DNA from: an uncultured Lachnospiraceae bacterium
GTDB lineage: Bacteria; Bacillota; Clostridia; Lachnospirales; Lachnospiraceae
Assembly (NCBI GenBank): GCA_945919795.1
Contig: CAMEJJ010000008.1
Location: forward strand, 1-64,000
Length of the DNA stretch: 64,000 nt
Direction: 5' to 3'
In this document: in pieces, positions 4,738-57,608 of the stretch
Layout of the letters: each line of letters starts with the position of its first letter
How positions within the stretch are numbered: the first letter of the stretch is position 1
Notes under the pieces: model-generated
What the model was told of the DNA's origin: nothing
The model's database searches: none
What the model saw: only the letters and a program-made list of their open reading frames with translations
Translations under genes and position numbers: made by a program

Positions 4738-5492
4738 TATTTTGCCGCATGTTCTTTCTCCATGCGTTCTCTTTCCGCCTGTGACAGACGCAGATACTCC
4801 GGTTTGTGCTCATAAGCCTTAATCAATTTTCCTTCTTTTGCATATTGCGCTGCCAAAACAGCCACAGCAGAAGCATGTTGTCGATTGCAGTTAGCCGGTG
4901 CAAACCCATAAGGCACTTTTAACTCAGTCCGGATGTCAGCATTTTGTACAGGTACGCCGTCTCCTAAAAACATAACCGGCCTGCCGATATCATTCAGCTC
5001 GCCAATTACCTCATGCATGTCTGCAACAAACTGCGGTTTTTCAACCACAAAAGTAACCCCTGTCTTGTCAAAAACATCTACTGTCTGATCACATTTTTCC
5101 TTTTTCATAAAGGAATAGTATCCGGTATAAACCTGATTGCGTCTGGCATCCATAATCGGACAAATGATTCCTTCATAGCCAATAAGCTGATATGCCATGG
5201 CATCCATGGTAGGAATTTCGGCAATTGGTTTATCCAATGCTTCGGCGATTCCCTTCGCAGTTGCAGAACCAATGCGCAATCCGGTAAAAGATCCAGGGCC
5301 TGCCGCTACGGCCACAACATCAATCGTTGCTAAATCCAGCTCTATCATACGCTTCACTTCATCTAACATAGGAAGTAAAGTCTGTGAATGCGTTTTTTTA
5401 TAATCAATGGTATATTCGGCAAGCAGCCTGTCATCTTCCGTAACGGCGACACTGGCTACCAGTCCCGAACTGTCAATTGCAAGAATTTTCAT
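4737..5492 (-). CDS. tsaB: tRNA threonylcarbamoyladenosine biosynthesis protein TsaB
   Basis: MKILAIDSSG, AAGPGSFTGLRIG motifs. Confidence 0.94.
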   Translation of the reverse strand: MKILAIDSSGLVASVAVTEDDRLLAEYTIDYKKTHSQTLLPMLDEVKRMIELDLATIDVVAVAAGPGSFTGLRIGSATAKGIAEALDKPIAEIPTMDAMAYQLIGYEGIICPIMDARRNQVYTGYYSFMKKEKCDQTVDVFDKTGVTFVVEKPQFVADMHEVIGELNDIGRPVMFLGDGVPVQNADIRTELKVPYGFAPANCNRQHASAVAVLAAQYAKEGKLIKAYEHKPEYLRLSQAERERMEKEHAAK

Positions 5493-5582
5493 AGATTACT
5501 CACCTGACTGTCTAAAATGTTTCCTCTTTCTCATCATTTATATTTCAATGAATAGATATTCTATCGATTTTTGCCCTTTCCC

Positions 5583-6017
5583 CTATACCGGGACATCATC
5601 CGATAACGTTATCTTGCGATAATCAAAACCTTTTTCCGGATTTTTTTCAATCGTAATCCATTTAGTCTCTTTGGGCATAATATCCTGAATCAGATTGGCC
5701 CACTCAACCAGACAAATCCCCTCTCCGAAAAAGCAGTCTTCGTATCCGATTTCTTCCATCTCTTCCGGATCACCGATGCGATAGACATCAAAGTGGTAAA
5801 AAGGTAATCTTCCTTCATCATATACCTGCAAAATGGTAAAAGTCGGACTGTTGACCGGCTCATTAATGTCCAGTCCGGATGCTACACCTTGTGTAAAAAC
5901 AGTCTTTCCAACTCCCAAATCACCGATTAAAGCGTAAATATCACCGGCTTTTGCATTTTTTCCAATTTGGTATCCTAATTGATACGTTTCTTTGTCATGA
6001 AATGTTTCTATTACCAT
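5583..6017 (-). CDS. tsaE: tRNA t6A ATPase TsaE
   Basis: GDLGVGKTVFTQGVA, SPTFTILQVY, LVEWA motifs. Confidence 0.94.
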   Translation of the reverse strand: MVIETFHDKETYQLGYQIGKNAKAGDIYALIGDLGVGKTVFTQGVASGLDINEPVNSPTFTILQVYDEGRLPFYHFDVYRIGDPEEMEEIGYEDCFFGEGICLVEWANLIQDIMPKETKWITIEKNPEKGFDYRKITLSDDVPV

Positions 6018-21382: not shown

Positions 21383-21570
21383 TGATGATGGAAAAAGCAG
21401 GGGTAAAGAGATAAAGTGTTTTTTATGAAATTTATAATTAATAGAGATACCGATTAAATGGCTAAAGATAATATTATATGGTAAAGGGATGGTAAATCGT
21501 GGTAGAATATAAAAAATTAGGTAATGGAAATGTTCCTTTTTGCATCTGAGTTTACATAAATCAAAATATG

Positions 21571-21800
21571 TAAGTCCAATATTTGAAATGTTGTTGTTTT
21601 GGCATGACTAGTTGCACGATGTAGTAGGTCCATTCCTTGAAACGATGTCGCTTTGGCATGACTAGTTGCATGATGTAGTAGGCCCATTTCTTGAAACGAT
21701 GTTGCTTTGGCATGACTAGTTGCATGATGTGGTAGGTCCATATCTTGAAACGATGTTGCCCTGGCATGACTAGTTGCATGATGTGGTAGGTCCATATCAT
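21571..21800. repeat. 54 bp tandem repeat array (about four copies)
   Basis: ttgaaacgatgtygctttggcatgactagttgcatgatgtrgtaggyccat unit repeated. Confidence 0.92.
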
Positions 21801-51114: not shown

Positions 51115-52236
51115 TTAATTTGAATCGATATTTTTTTGCAACCATGCGCGATAGTCTTCCCGTATTTCCTGAATTGACACCAAAATGCCGTCACGCTTTA
51201 CATACCAAACCTCAAAGCCATTCAGCCTTTTAGCTTTTACACCTTTTACCTTTGCCGCACAACTGTGCATATCCGTGATTTTTCCTTTATAAAGAAGTTT
51301 TCCGTCTGCCTGCAAAATACCGCCTTTTGTTCCATCCTGTAAATAGAACATCTCCTCATTAAAAAAGAAACCGTTTTGAATCATCTCCGACATCTTGGCT
51401 GTTAAAGGCTTTGTGTCAAAGACAGCGTTGGCAATATCCGAATCTTCAAACACTTCGCGTTCAATTCTTTGTTTACCGTACTCGTAATATTTGGGATCCC
51501 GCTCAATCATAAAATAGTTTCGTCCCAGCCTTTTTGCAATGGCTCCCGTAGTCATAGTTCCGCCAAACGGGTCTAATACCATATCGCCGACATTGGAAGA
51601 TATCGCAATAATACGGTATAGCAGTTCTTCCGGCTTTTGTGTTGTATGAAGCTTTTCACCCTGTTCATTTTTTAGTCGCTCGTTTCCGGAGCACACTGCA
51701 ATTTTCCAAACCGATCCCAATTGCTTGCGAATTCCCTTTTCATAATCAGCTTCATCCACCGTATCCAGATTCAGCTCTTTTGCCGTTTTATAGTGAAAAG
51801 TATACTTGGATTTTTTGCTTTTCGTAGCCCAGATTAATGTCTCATGACTGTTATTTAATCTTGTCCCCTTAAAATTCGGTGTCGGATTTTTTTTATGCCA
51901 TACGATATCATTGATTAGCCAGTATCCGATTTCCTGCATAATAGCGCCAATGGTATAGATACACTGCATCCCGCCGATTACCCAGATGGAGCCGTCGGGC
52001 TTTAAAATCCGGTAGCATTCACGAAGCCATTCTTTAGTGAAGGCTTCATAATCTTCCAGACTTTCAAACTGATCCCATGCATCCATACAACCATCAAAAT
52101 CCGTTCCCTCCACACGTTTTAAGACTCCTTCCACTCTCATCCAGTAAGGAGGATCGGCAAAAATCAGATCAATGCTGTTTTCCTCAAGCTTTTTCATCTC
52201 CTCTATCGAATTGCCATTGATAATCATACTTTCCAT
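51115..52236 (-). CDS. beta-class DNA adenine methyltransferase, CcrM/HinfI-like
   Basis: LIFADPPYWMRVEG, WDQFESLEDYEAFTKEWL, IWVIGGMQCIYTIGAIMQEIGYWLINDIVWHKKNPTPNFKGTRLNNSHETLIWA, TTQKPEELLYRII; C-terminal RAMA-like domain. Confidence 0.88.
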   Translation of the reverse strand: MESMIINGNSIEEMKKLEENSIDLIFADPPYWMRVEGVLKRVEGTDFDGCMDAWDQFESLEDYEAFTKEWLRECYRILKPDGSIWVIGGMQCIYTIGAIMQEIGYWLINDIVWHKKNPTPNFKGTRLNNSHETLIWATKSKKSKYTFHYKTAKELNLDTVDEADYEKGIRKQLGSVWKIAVCSGNERLKNEQGEKLHTTQKPEELLYRIIAISSNVGDMVLDPFGGTMTTGAIAKRLGRNYFMIERDPKYYEYGKQRIEREVFEDSDIANAVFDTKPLTAKMSEMIQNGFFFNEEMFYLQDGTKGGILQADGKLLYKGKITDMHSCAAKVKGVKAKRLNGFEVWYVKRDGILVSIQEIREDYRAWLQKNIDSN

Positions 52237-52955: not shown

Positions 52956-53888
52956 CTATTTTGTTTCCCTATCCTTTAAAATCCGATGAATCTTATTGCT
53001 TAATATCCAATCTTCTTTGGTGCGCATATTCTTGATTTCGGCTAAATAAGATTCATTTAAGGATATATCATATAAAGCTGCAAGATACAAAACCCTTGCA
53101 TAACTTGGCTCATGAAGTTTCTCCAGTTTCTTTTTTATAACCATGTATGCTCTGGAAGGATCAAGTGTAATAACGGCATTGATAACGCCCAAATCTCCCT
53201 GGTCAAATCTTTCAAAAATTGTATTTTGCAACTCCAGTTTCTCATTATCGTATAATGCATCTACAAAATCAGGTGCATGTCCTTTTAACTCCGGAACGGA
53301 AATCTGTTGTATAAAATTTATGTAAGACTGACTATGTTCTTCATCACATGCAGGATAAAACCTTTCTCTTATCTCTTCTTTTAGATTATCCTTTGTAAGA
53401 ATTTGTAATGAGGTTATGGCACCGGAAGAAATTCTCTCATGTACTATGGGTCCCTCACAATTTTGCCAAGTGATGCCCTCATAGTCCTCAAAAAAGTATG
53501 TTGTTTCTCCAAAAACATGATCGGCAAATTCTTTTGAAGCAGCATTCCATAGTTTCATAGGATCATATTTATTTCCGGTTCCAAAATTGTTTTGCCAGGG
53601 GAACTTCACATTTAACCATTCCCATTCGTCCAACACTTTACCTCCCGGAGTACTATTAAAGGTTTGCCATCCCATGATCTGTGCTATTTTTGTGATCCTT
53701 TTCTTGTCACCACTCCAAAAACATGCTCTGTCTTTGGATGTTGAAAAATCGAGTCCCTTAACAAATCCGTGATAATCCTCTTCTAAGAGCATTTGAAACA
53801 AATCATGCACTTCTTTTTCATCAGATGCATAAGGCATCATCCTTATCAGGAATTCCTGATATCCTGCTTTATCCAAATCTGAAATCAT
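52956..53888 (-). CDS. protein with ADP-ribosyl cyclase (CD38-like)/NADase-like N-terminal region
   Basis: ACFWSGDKKRITKIAQIMGWQTFNSTPGGKVLDEW...LWNAASKEFADHVFG...WQNCEGPIVHERI order of motifs; start at MISDLD overlapping stop of radical SAM gene (ATGA). Confidence 0.42.
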   Translation of the reverse strand: MISDLDKAGYQEFLIRMMPYASDEKEVHDLFQMLLEEDYHGFVKGLDFSTSKDRACFWSGDKKRITKIAQIMGWQTFNSTPGGKVLDEWEWLNVKFPWQNNFGTGNKYDPMKLWNAASKEFADHVFGETTYFFEDYEGITWQNCEGPIVHERISSGAITSLQILTKDNLKEEIRERFYPACDEEHSQSYINFIQQISVPELKGHAPDFVDALYDNEKLELQNTIFERFDQGDLGVINAVITLDPSRAYMVIKKKLEKLHEPSYARVLYLAALYDISLNESYLAEIKNMRTKEDWILSNKIHRILKDRETK

Positions 53889-55414
53889 AAAATCACCGGC
53901 TTCCATACGAATGAAGGAAATGTTTGATCCTGTTCATAACAGGCATCCTCCAAGTTTTCTCTTATATTATCGAGTTTCTTTAAAACCTGTATCGTCTCGT
54001 CCGTATGCAGTTTTTTGCCATAATATAAATCCAGAAACAGTTCATATACAGCCCGATTTAATTCTCTCATGACTGCCTGATATTCTTCTTTTCTGAAATA
54101 TTTCTCTATGAATTCTTCTCCAAAAAAATTTTTTACTGCATTTAAAAAGTTTGCAAAAAAATGCGTATACAACTCACTTTTATTCAGTATTTCTTTTCCC
54201 GTACTGTCGCTACATGCCTTCACAACTCTGTCACAAAATTCTTTCACTCTGAAATCTTTAAAATTGTAATTATAATAATCGATATCAGCCGCAGTTTCCT
54301 TTAATAACCCATCCTCTTTGATACGGTCGTAAAGTTTTGTTCCTTTAACAATCATCAGTCTGTGAACATAATGACTCAGACTTGAAAATCCATATTCATA
54401 AAGCATCTGTGCATTTTCCAGTATTCCTTCCATGGTAGAATAAGGATGAATATTGATAAAACCGATATCCAGATTGAAACCGTGGTTTCTGACAAAATTG
54501 ATAGCAAGCCTTATATCCTGCAGTGTCTGCTTCTGAAAAATATGTAATTCATTTTCCTGAAACGATTCAATGCCAAGATAGATCGTGGATAATCCTGCTT
54601 CCTTTAATACTGCTATTTCACGCTCCGAATAAAGTTTATATATGGAAGTCCTGAAATTTGCTGCAAACACAATCGGAAGTTTCATTTGGATAAGCTTTTG
54701 TGCAATCTCAATTGAGCGGTGTGCCTTTGTCCTGTTATAATACTCTGCATCTTCATCTTCAAAGCTGCTGTCAGCAAATCTTAGTATTAAAAATGGTTGA
54801 TTCTGATACAACCTTTTGATCTCATCGGCAATATCTTTCACACTCCGTCCTCTCCAACACTTTTGTATTCTTAAAGCCGGATCTGTACAGAAGCTACATT
54901 TTCTGGTACATCCGATGGATGTCAGCAACATTTCTTCTCTGTATGGATTCGCACAGATGGGTTCGCTTTGCGGAAACGAATCCCGCATCTTTATATACTT
55001 ATATAACTGTTTTTCTTTCAGTCTGAAATGCACTTCATCCGCACAATCATCAAATGGAAATATTCTGTCACAGATTTCTATATCACTATATTTTTTCAAA
55101 ACGTCCTTATAATAACAGGCTGTATATCCCCAAAGTACCACCTTGATATCCGGCTGAAGTTCTTTTACCTTATGTATAAAATCCATCGTTAATGATATAG
55201 AACAGCTCATATATTCATATCTAAAGTCAAAAACACTGATATAAAGTACATCATAGGAACCTTTGGTCACAAATGAAACTGCTTTTTCTACCTGATTAAA
55301 ATACCCAAGCTTAGCTTCACATCCGTTGTCTATTAGATATTGAAAAAAATATTCGGCATTTTGATGATGCTCCAGATATTGGTTATTATCTTGTAAAGAA
55401 ATAATTGCATACAT
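53885..55414 (-). CDS. B12-binding-type radical SAM protein
   Basis: N-terminal Rossmann-like region VLYISVFDFRYEY..VVLWGYTA; CTRKCSFC (CxxxCxxC); YLGIESFQENELHIFQK. Confidence 0.85.
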   Translation of the reverse strand: MYAIISLQDNNQYLEHHQNAEYFFQYLIDNGCEAKLGYFNQVEKAVSFVTKGSYDVLYISVFDFRYEYMSCSISLTMDFIHKVKELQPDIKVVLWGYTACYYKDVLKKYSDIEICDRIFPFDDCADEVHFRLKEKQLYKYIKMRDSFPQSEPICANPYREEMLLTSIGCTRKCSFCTDPALRIQKCWRGRSVKDIADEIKRLYQNQPFLILRFADSSFEDEDAEYYNRTKAHRSIEIAQKLIQMKLPIVFAANFRTSIYKLYSEREIAVLKEAGLSTIYLGIESFQENELHIFQKQTLQDIRLAINFVRNHGFNLDIGFINIHPYSTMEGILENAQMLYEYGFSSLSHYVHRLMIVKGTKLYDRIKEDGLLKETAADIDYYNYNFKDFRVKEFCDRVVKACSDSTGKEILNKSELYTHFFANFLNAVKNFFGEEFIEKYFRKEEYQAVMRELNRAVYELFLDLYYGKKLHTDETIQVLKKLDNIRENLEDACYEQDQTFPSFVWKPVIL

Positions 55415-55510
55415 AATATTTCCCCATTTATGTCTTGTTTGTACATCTGTTTTATTTGTGTTTTCGTTTTATTTATAATTCTTTCATTCGTGCTTATTTA
55501 TCATTTGTAT

Positions 55511-56212
55511 TTATATCTTTTTTTGGCTTCTCGTATATATTTTGCTCGGTCTGTGCATTTGTCCTGTTGTATATTCGTCGGTTTCAGATACCAGTTCTTT
55601 TATCTTCTTACGAAAGTTAGCTTTGTATAATTTCTTATCAAGCAATATCTCATATATCTTCTGTAAATCCGGGAGTGTAAATTTTTCCGGCAGAAATTGA
55701 AATGCTATGGAAGTATACGCAACCTTATTTTTAATTCGCTCTCTTCCGTACTGAATCATTTTCTTATGATCAAAGGCTATGGCATCGTCTTTTTCCTCAT
55801 TTAAAATATCTTTAACAGAAAACAGATGCCTCCTAATATCCCCAAGCTGATCACATGTATATAATTCTTCTTTGGGAACCAATGCCAGATAGGAAACCGA
55901 AATAATACGCATTCTTGGGTCCCTGTCTACCTCACCCCATGTATACAACTGTTCAAAATATATATTCTCCAAACCAGCCTTATCAAGCAATCCTCTTTTG
56001 ACCGCATCTTCCAACGATTCATGGATTCCAACAAATACACCCGGCAAAGACAATCTGCCCACGAAAGGGGAAGCCTTCCTTTCAACCAAAAAAATTTTCA
56101 ATTCATCATCCTCTATTGTAAATATGAGTAAATCAACCGCTACGGATGGTTTTTCATACTCCCGACTGTCATACTGGGCCAGAAATTGTTCATCAGCCAA
56201 TTCATTTGTCAT
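55511..56212 (-). CDS. NrtR-like Nudix-related transcriptional regulator
   Basis: Nudix-like domain SVAVDLLIFTIEDDELKIFLVERKASPFVGRLSLPGVFVG plus C-terminal winged helix KFTLPDLQKIYEILLDKKLYKANFRKKIKEL...HRPSKIY. Confidence 0.8.
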   Translation of the reverse strand: MTNELADEQFLAQYDSREYEKPSVAVDLLIFTIEDDELKIFLVERKASPFVGRLSLPGVFVGIHESLEDAVKRGLLDKAGLENIYFEQLYTWGEVDRDPRMRIISVSYLALVPKEELYTCDQLGDIRRHLFSVKDILNEEKDDAIAFDHKKMIQYGRERIKNKVAYTSIAFQFLPEKFTLPDLQKIYEILLDKKLYKANFRKKIKELVSETDEYTTGQMHRPSKIYTRSQKKI

Positions 56213-56241
56213 TATTTGGTCCTCCTTTATGTATTTTTAGT

Positions 56242-56293
56242 TAGTAGCATATCGATACTTTGTTGTAATTATATTAGTATACTTTTGCTACTA
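56242..56293 (-). promoter_or_regulatory. candidate operator dyad upstream of the NrtR-like gene
   Basis: tagtagcatatcgatact (56242-56259) and inverted agtatacttttgctacta (56276-56293). Confidence 0.5.
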
Positions 56294-56364
56294 TGTCAAC
56301 AAAAAATATTTAGAAATAAAAAGGTACCTTTTTTGCACCGTGTGCTGAATTATGGATATAGAAA

Positions 56365-56426: not shown

Positions 56427-57461
56427 CTACAGCCAATTTATACGCTTTTCGAACACTACTTTATGCTCTCCTTCTTCTATTATTCCAATCTCATAACAAT
56501 CATAGAACTGACTAATATGTGCCATTCCATGTATAATATCTCTATCAAACAAATCTTTGATTGATTTATAATATGGCGTATGAGGTTTCATGATCTGTTC
56601 TATAAATGTTAATCCATCTATTTTATCCAACTTTATTTGCGGCATTTTGTCCATCAATAACCGAATCAATGAATATCCATTTGTATGAAGACCATTAGAG
56701 GCAATCGCTAAAACAGAATCTCCTTTTTGGATTGCTGTTCCGTCTATTACCTTTGATTTTTCAACAATACCGGCAATGCTTGAAGTAAGTACATAAACCC
56801 CTGATTCTACAACTAATGGCTGAATGGAAGTCTCTCCACCTACAAGGGAACATTCATTTTCTCTACAAGCTTCCGAAACACCCTTTACCAATGATTTTAT
56901 TGTGTCTTTTTCTGCATTACCACAAACAATCGTATCCAACACCGCCAAAGGCTTGGCTCCCATAACTATAATATCATTTACCAGATGATTAACCATATCG
57001 TGGCAAATTGATTCTGTATAACCATATTCCATGGCAAGTTTTTGTTTAGATCCAGGTTCCTCTGCCTTTAATACCAAAACAGGATTCTCAATCTCAGCGA
57101 ATTTGATATCATATAAGGAAGCAAAAGGTCCCAAACCATTCAAAACACGTTTGTCCTTGGTTTCCAAATGCTTTGACATTTCTTTCTTGATGGAATCTGT
57201 ATAGGTAATATCGATTCCAGCCTTACTGTATGATAATCCTTCTACATCTTTTTCACTACCGGCCAGAATTTCATCTACCGATACCTCTAACACAATCGCC
57301 AGATCTCTCAATATTTCAATGTTAGGATATGTGGTTCCGTTCTCCCACTTTGATATTGCCTGAAAAGAAATGTTTAACTTATCTGCAAGCTGTTGTTGCG
57401 TCAACCCAAGAGCCTTACGTTTTTCCATTATAAAATTGCCAACTTTAATACTGTCAAGCAT
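56427..57461 (-). CDS. XRE-family HTH protein fused to a degenerate PurM (AIR synthase)-like domain
   Basis: HTH GLTQQQLADKLNISFQAISKWENGTTYPN; PurM-like LNGLGPFASLYDI, CHDMVNHLVNDIIVMGAKPLAVLD, CSLVGGET, NGLHTNGYSLIR, HGMAHIS; start MLDSIKV after ggaggt RBS. Confidence 0.85.
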   Translation of the reverse strand: MLDSIKVGNFIMEKRKALGLTQQQLADKLNISFQAISKWENGTTYPNIEILRDLAIVLEVSVDEILAGSEKDVEGLSYSKAGIDITYTDSIKKEMSKHLETKDKRVLNGLGPFASLYDIKFAEIENPVLVLKAEEPGSKQKLAMEYGYTESICHDMVNHLVNDIIVMGAKPLAVLDTIVCGNAEKDTIKSLVKGVSEACRENECSLVGGETSIQPLVVESGVYVLTSSIAGIVEKSKVIDGTAIQKGDSVLAIASNGLHTNGYSLIRLLMDKMPQIKLDKIDGLTFIEQIMKPHTPYYKSIKDLFDRDIIHGMAHISQFYDCYEIGIIEEGEHKVVFEKRINWL

Positions 57462-57608
57462 CGGAAATACCTCCGTTTTTATTTTATAATAGCTTACCTT
57501 GCAGCCATGAAACAATAACCGCGAAAGGGAGTTCTAAAACATAACTCAACTATGAGTTGAATTGATGTATATTCATAGGATTTCTGACATACACAAATCC
57601 CTCTTTCA

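Follow-up and report, generated by a model that had tools for sequence, protein, structure and literature searches.

A putative NAD-linked operon encoding an NrtR-type regulator, a radical SAM protein, and an ADP-ribosyl cyclase-like protein with a fused immunity-like domain

The three-gene locus

The window analyzed here is a stretch of 64,000 nucleotides from an uncultured Lachnospiraceae bacterium (contig CAMEJJ010000008.1, positions 1 to 64,000), and it carries on its minus strand three co-directional open reading frames (ORFs) that encode, in order, an NrtR-type regulator, a radical S-adenosylmethionine (SAM) protein, and a protein of 310 amino acids (aa) that combines an ADP-ribosyl cyclase (ARC)-like domain with an immunity-like domain and that we refer to as ARC-Imm. 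All features of this unit described below lie on the minus strand. The regulator gene (55511-56212) encodes 233 aa comprising a Nudix-like domain with a broken Nudix box and an NrtR winged helix, the radical SAM gene (rSAM, 53885-55414) encodes 509 aa with an N-terminal B12-binding-like region without DxHxxG, and the start codon of the ARC-Imm gene (52956-53888) overlaps the rSAM stop codon in an ATGA at 53885-53888; an in-frame ATG at 53906 is an alternative start that would add 6 aa. About 96-97 bp separate the NrtR gene from the rSAM gene, and inspection of this gap by eye revealed no small peptide gene. A likely terminator of the upstream gene lies at 56393-56367, ahead of the unit, and a pilin-like ORF starts 88 bp downstream of ARC-Imm. 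Because the pilin-like ORF is missing from that position in the second genome in which we found the unit (G693, a Eubacteriales metagenome-assembled genome), we count the unit as three genes.

An original prediction, made from the sequence alone, had described this region (with a range to 56293, which takes in part of the promoter) as an operon linked to nicotinamide adenine dinucleotide (NAD). The three ORFs and their ATGA coupling are all present where it placed them. Its NrtR-like lead gene matches the Pfam models NrtR_WHD (PF21906) with 74 bits and NUDIX (PF00293) with 30 bits, and its CxxxCxxC radical SAM protein matches PF04055 with 44 bits and has the iron-sulfur motif at residues 169-176 (54887-54910). 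The claim that this is not a standard NAD salvage operon agrees with the presence of a separate, standard-looking NrtR-pncA-pnuC-nadR-type operon elsewhere in the genome. Two features reported here were not part of that prediction, namely the fused immunity-like domain and a glutamate-to-asparagine change at the position that hydrolyzes cyclic ADP-ribose (cADPR).

The ADP-ribosyl cyclase domain and the fused immunity-like domain

ARC-Imm matches the ARC model PF02267 with 20.1 bits (E 4.6e-4), which alone is under the curated cut-off of 25, and a single-sequence phmmer search with ARC-Imm found no ARC entry in the PDB. A two-row profile searched against solved structures also returned no ARC entry, and a divergent third sequence was therefore needed. 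The profile of ARC-Imm and its one close relative led to a divergent 144-aa domain in G405, a genome from the same phylum (E 1.4e-8), which aligns pairwise with ARC-Imm without gaps (E 4e-16) and on its own finds Aplysia cyclase, CD38 proteins, Tac1, and the Pantoea ARC toxin. The three-sequence profile matched, among PDB entries, ARCtox 9ro8 (6e-6), CD38-like 5bnf (6e-5), Aplysia cyclase 1lbe (9e-5), and Tac1 9ouf (1e-4). A first structure prediction from two sequences (pLDDT 40) was not used; a second, built from five sequences, was of modest confidence (pLDDT 63, pTM 0.41), and all 50 of its 50 best Foldseek matches are ARC-family structures (CD38, CD157, Aplysia cyclase, and two bacterial ARC-type domains), in agreement with the two-lobed ARC fold; the TMt to 9ro8 is 0.60 for this low-confidence query model. 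Sequence profile and Foldseek both give the ARC/CD38 fold that the original prediction had proposed for the third protein, and not the unrelated fold that had been named beforehand as the contrary outcome. Residues 46-165 (53394-53753), within approximate boundaries, are thus almost certainly homologous to the ARC/CD38 family. No homologue was found for the preceding helical segment (residues 1-45, 53754-53888), which is predicted to form helices at 4-20 and 24-36 with a pLDDT of about 50-76.

The ARC domain has equivalents of the catalytic residues in W58, D87, W114, S118, and E145. Alignment to 9ro8 and Aplysia cyclase places the essential glutamate at E145 and the active-site tryptophans at W58 and W114; according to the alignment to 9ro8, the E145 codon (53454-53456) occupies the site of CD38 E226, ARCtox E356, and Tac1 E573. 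W58, W114, S118, and E145 align with CD38 W125, W189, S193, and E226. The second glutamate position (CD38 E146, Aplysia E98, Tac1 E516, ARCtox E299) is N78 in the window (codon 53655-53657) as well as in the G693 relative, and the ARC domain of G405 retains glutamate there. N78 was placed by the gapless alignment to the G405 domain, whose glutamate aligns with that of the Aplysia TLEDT motif, and D87 lies nine residues past N78, as far as D155 lies past E146 in CD38. The E226-type glutamate is essential in CD38, Tac1 (E573), and ARCtox (E356) (PMC12356396, PMC12605009). In CD38, D155 is reported to be crucial for cADPR synthesis and the E146A substitution raises it (PMC7734206), Tac1 E516A is an enzyme that releases cADPR, and the natural Nac1, which has alanine at the E516-type site, yields roughly as much cADPR as ADP-ribose (PMC12356396). 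Because N78 stands in place of the cADPR-hydrolyzing glutamate, release of cADPR is predicted by analogy with Tac1 E516A and Nac1, and on this analogy we give even weight to cADPR being, or not being, a main product of the ARC half.

The C-terminal half of ARC-Imm has its counterpart in the same G405 locus, in which the ARC ORF (L021:4766-5200) is followed, with an overlap of 11 bases, by an ORF for a 203-aa protein (5190-5801), and their products correspond, in this order, to the N- and C-terminal halves of ARC-Imm. We took the 203-aa protein as an immunity protein because its gene lies directly behind the ARC ORF, which is the usual toxin-immunity order. It is 47% identical to a free-standing protein from another genome (G297, L003), and residues 183-308 of ARC-Imm align with both free-standing proteins (hhalign E 6.5e-8, probability 94.6); the ARC-Imm C terminus also finds the L003 protein by BLASTP (E 3e-10). 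The immunity-like domain of the window (residues 183-310, 52959-53342) is shorter than these homologues of about 203 aa, as it is without an internal stretch and their last ~50 residues. We consider it very probable that the C terminus of ARC-Imm originated from an immunity protein. The ARC immunity families described so far are Imm74 and an unrelated type from a type VI secretion system (T6SS) (PMC12356396), and no Pfam family covers the 203-aa protein of G405, which indicates an immunity family against ARC toxins outside Pfam.

Since the two halves are separate genes elsewhere and one polypeptide here, with their order kept, a toxin and its immunity protein appear to have been fused, and the cognate immunity partner that adjoins the ARC domain is present as a domain, yet in shortened form and joined to it in cis. 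Both the window and G693 have the fusion intact, and the idea of an assembly error was dropped in view of the same open fused frame in the second genome. That the fused ORF is open there too, with an overall ratio of nonsynonymous to synonymous substitutions (dN/dS) of 0.11, and that the gene order is repeated, goes beyond chance. Between the two genomes, dN/dS is 0.04 in the ARC part and 0.26 in the immunity part. Judged from these sequences, the stronger constraint on the ARC part argues for an active enzyme combined with a faster-changing surface that serves as a restraint or sensor. Restraint of the ARC half in cis by the immunity half is a proposal for and against which we see the case as evenly balanced.

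The loss of the E146-type residue, together with the existence of a free-standing C-terminal homologue without an adjacent toxin (L003), would also fit a protein whose ARC half is inactive and which protects the cell as a decoy against the incoming ARC toxins of competitors, in the manner of an orphan immunity gene. This explanation is improbable, as the protein retains the essential E145 together with W58 and W114, constraint is strongest in its ARC half, and it is the immunity half that is truncated.

The homologous loci offer two further observations. The free-standing homologue in G297 (L003:1213-1833, minus strand, contig C9) has no toxin within the surrounding 3.3 kb and is probably an orphan immunity gene. 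The G405 locus (L021:1-7200, contig C21) is a series of what look like orphan polymorphic-toxin cassettes, with immunity ORFs, that includes the ARC cassette and in which the junction EAYNLSGFH/Y recurs.

Regulation, distribution, and the radical SAM partner

A promoter-like site, TTGACA and TAATAT separated by 17 nt (56271-56299), precedes the regulator gene with 10/12 consensus matches; matches this good are about equally frequent in shuffled sequences, and the position of the site is the sole argument for it. Between its -35 and -10 elements lies a candidate NrtR operator, AGTAGCAAAAGTATACT (56276-56292), with four mismatches to the palindrome AGTAGTAAAATACTACT, and a second, weaker candidate, AGTATCGATATGCTACT (56243-56259), has five mismatches to the same palindrome. 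AGTAGTAAAATACTACT is a perfect palindrome directly behind the TTGACA of the NAD-salvage NrtR promoter in this genome, and AGTAGCAAAAGTATACT occupies the same promoter position; permuted palindromes match the window site equally well in about 2% of trials. In 3.1 Mb, exact matches to the class pattern AGTAGYAAAAKWMTACT are confined to the two NrtR promoters. The second NrtR of the genome (G000:C14, L023) has a near-intact Nudix box and heads an operon of pncA, pnuC, a nadR-like gene, and a gene for nicotinate phosphoribosyltransferase, as read from translations. The winged-helix segments that read DNA are nearly identical in the two NrtR proteins (FTLPDLQKIYEILLDKKLYKANFR vs. FTLPDLQKVYEILLGKTLYKTNFR). 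The idea that the three genes belong to the salvage operon proper was dropped, since that operon is located elsewhere. The gap between NrtR and pncA in the salvage operon is filled by a 74-bp tandem repeat with 3.5 copies and 91% matches (L023:4633-4892).

The window regulator reaches 147 bits with the NCBIfam model NF050029, under the equivalog cut-off of 400. Its Nudix box region reads VFVGIHESLEDAVKRGLLDKAGL, and the box is broken in the window and G693 regulators alike, which is usual in NrtR sensors; ADP-ribose, which arises from NAD cleavage, releases the Shewanella and Synechocystis NrtR proteins from DNA (PMC4666351). We regard control of the three-gene operon by its NrtR as likely.

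To determine how widely the unit occurs, we searched for close relatives across 84,980 species genomes, and a single genome, G693 (L001), was returned. A search of 397 genomes of the family yielded only the copy in the window and one orphan immunity-type gene, PF02267 gave two weak matches over 300 genomes of the phylum (the window itself and one sequence with an internal stop), and the ARC profile found only the window in 291 genomes of the class. No relatives were found in phages, plasmids, or viral contigs with fusion, ARC, or immunity queries, although not all queries covered all collections. G693 repeats the order NrtR-rSAM-ARC-Imm, so that the co-occurrence of the three genes, which the original prediction had proposed as a check, is seen in one other genome; the rSAM gene there is split over contig ends (residues 1-255 on C6 and 260-509 on C59), and we infer that the unit is continuous across them.

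The ARC-Imm proteins of the two genomes are 79% identical and the rSAM proteins 71-76%, compared with 43% for NrtR and 69% for the core gene product UvrB. The synonymous divergence (dS) is 1.0-1.1 for rSAM and ARC-Imm and saturated for UvrB and NrtR. From the lower dS of rSAM and ARC-Imm we conclude that these two genes travelled together and that the regulator has another history, a comparison of two genomes with a single core gene as reference, and rSAM and ARC-Imm have probably been transferred horizontally. An NrtR-type regulator stands in front of the unit in both genomes despite this separate history, and the flanking genes differ. The DNA-reading segment of the G693 regulator differs from that in the window, and its promoter differs as well.

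Among named models, rSAM comes closest to those for lipid and hopanoid radical SAM enzymes, with scores far under the cut-offs. Its N-terminal region matches PF02310 with just 14 bits and does not have the cobalamin motif DxHxxG of the B12-binding domain in cobalamin-dependent (class B) radical SAM enzymes, and the searches made found no ortholog outside the window genome and G693. The sole clue to the function of this protein is that it is inherited together with the ARC fusion. The close translational coupling of rSAM with ARC-Imm and their common history would suit a biosynthetic pair in which the ARC half makes an activated (cyclic) ADP-ribosyl nucleotide that rSAM modifies into a small molecule, with NrtR controlling the supply, and distant rSAM relatives (32-34%) are clustered with AMP-ligase, aminotransferase, and transketolase-like genes. 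We consider such a pair quite unlikely given that the conserved unit is without further biosynthetic or export genes, that its flanks differ between the two genomes, and that rSAM reaches only general B12 and radical SAM models, far under their cut-offs. The clusters of these distant relatives in two other genomes (L016 in G166 and L017 in G345) share AMP-ligase, aminotransferase, and glyoxalase-like genes and look biosynthetic, and that of L017 additionally has the transketolase-like genes.

Relation to known ARC systems and proposed function

The first bacterial ARC enzymes were characterized in 2025, mostly as secreted toxins, and bacterial ARC proteins have been described as tied to secretion domains or standing alone, the latter as Nac (PMC12356396, PMC12605009). 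Tac1, a substrate of the type VII secretion system of Streptococcus parasanguinis, which is followed by its immunity protein Tci1 (PMC12356396), shares with ARC-Imm the ARC-fold domain, the conserved tryptophans, the essential glutamate, and the immunity protein that comes next. Tac1 differs in having an LXG secretion domain, the cADPR-hydrolyzing E516, and a separate immunity protein of the Imm74 family, whereas ARC-Imm has no secretion domain, N78 in place of the glutamate, and a fused immunity domain that belongs to no Pfam family. No secretion or trafficking domain was found in the 310 aa of ARC-Imm, and none was recognized by eye in the neighboring ORFs, not all of which were searched. 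ARCtox PANA_2924 of the Pantoea T6SS (PMC12605009, 9ro8), the top profile match among solved structures, is fused to PAAR, and its immunity protein ARCimm (PANA_2923) is separate and small and has been modelled in the catalytic cleft of ARCtox (PMC12605009). The "nontoxic" ARC protein Nac1 of Actinophytocola oryzae (PMC12356396) resembles ARC-Imm in that it has no E146/E516-type glutamate and no polymorphic-toxin machinery beside it; Nac1 has alanine at the site, carries a signal peptide, and is without an immunity protein, whereas ARC-Imm has asparagine, is fused to its immunity-like domain, and belongs to an operon with NrtR and rSAM. In comparison with the NAD-salvage operon of the same genome, the lead gene for a Nudix-winged helix regulator, the similar candidate operator, and the similar reading helix are common to both, and the window has rSAM and ARC genes where the other has pncA, pnuC, a nadR-like gene, and nicotinate phosphoribosyltransferase.

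We found no description of the arrangement of NrtR, rSAM, and an ARC-immunity fusion. The main text of the two 2025 papers on bacterial ARC proteins (PMC12356396, PMC12605009) does not mention radical SAM or NrtR, and no literature joining NrtR with radical SAM was found in a search that lay outside most subscription journals and leaves novelty unproven. As the original prediction put it, the operon may represent an undescribed NAD-consuming or signaling system.

The fusion itself recalls CapRel(SJ46), in which a toxin domain and an antitoxin-derived domain form a single polypeptide and the C-terminal antitoxin domain restrains the N-terminal toxin and senses a capsid protein (PMC9712102). The main rival to the explanation given below is a fused toxin-antitoxin for abortive infection, in which the immunity half would be both lock and sensor and a phage product would free the ARC half, deplete NAD, and stop growth. 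The same logic of architecture, the faster evolution of the immunity half (0.26 vs. 0.04), which is expected of a sensor surface, the sporadic and apparently horizontal distribution, and the common use of NAD depletion as a defense output are all in keeping with it. The domains of CapRel(SJ46) are unrelated to those of ARC-Imm (its toxin pyrophosphorylates tRNA), it has neither a regulator nor a radical SAM partner, and a sensor role in ARC-Imm is hypothetical. Against a role in defense, PADLOC gives no match for the fusion, no defense genes were recognized adjoining it except a lone DNA methyltransferase with at most a putative link, and defense would not obviously call for either NrtR or rSAM. 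Moreover, loss of the E146-type residue lowers the NAD turnover of Tac1 (PMC12356396). We regard such a role as unlikely.

The explanation that we put forward, at a confidence no higher than even, is that a polymorphic ARC toxin and its immunity protein were fused and recruited as a regulated NAD cyclase/hydrolase, restrained in cis and subject to ADP-ribose-type control. The ARC half would bind NAD (or NADP) and split off nicotinamide by means of E145, and with N78 in place of the hydrolyzing glutamate it would release a sizeable share of the product as cADPR, beside ADP-ribose. The shortened immunity half would occupy the ARC cleft and restrain the enzyme until some signal loosens its hold. 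The NrtR paralogue would repress the operon at an operator like that of NAD salvage and let go once an ADP-ribose-type ligand, either the direct ARC product or one downstream of it, accumulates. The translationally coupled and co-inherited rSAM would belong to this pathway as well, with either the ARC protein or a nucleotide product as the target of its modification. The analysis itself shows the ARC homology, the catalytic residues, the fusion, the gene order in both genomes, and the common history of rSAM and ARC-Imm, whereas enzyme activity, product, restraint in cis, ligand, and the part played by rSAM are hypothetical.

Several points weigh against this explanation. Docking is beyond the structure model, whose confidence is low (pLDDT 63), and the shortened immunity half may have lost or changed its inhibition. 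The candidate operator resembles that of the salvage operon only modestly (about 2% by permutation), with the pattern AGTAGYAAAAKWMTACT drawn from both sites, and the G693 regulator is merely 43% identical and its promoter is without a candidate operator. Members of the NrtR family can sense sugars instead, as AraR does, and the family includes proteins for arabinose and xylose (PMC4666351). Finally, nothing ties radical SAM chemistry to NAD, and the unit is carried by two genomes only.

The operon joins a cyclase-type ARC active site and a built-in inhibitor derived from a toxin system with a regulator family that senses products of NAD breakdown. The role of non-toxin ARC enzymes and of cADPR in bacteria was left open by the authors who described them (PMC12356396), and the operon is a compact, testable locus for it. 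A more speculative and, in our estimate, doubtful extension is a bacterial cADPR signaling loop, in which the domesticated ARC with its captured immunity domain as sensor would make cADPR or an rSAM-modified derivative and the NrtR paralogue would read the product and switch the operon on; if true, this would give ARC-made cADPR a physiological role in bacteria outside warfare.

Three other ORFs on the minus strand of the window deserve mention. An unusual chimeric ORF at 56427-57515 combines a Cro/CI-type helix-turn-helix with a C-terminally short PurM/AIR-synthase-like domain. The lone DNA methyltransferase-like ORF, at 51115-52236, has no visible restriction partner and lies two genes downstream of the operon. 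A short repetitive ORF at 21517-21795 consists of units like DLPHHATSHAKATSFQ and is perhaps merely a tandem repeat of the DNA.

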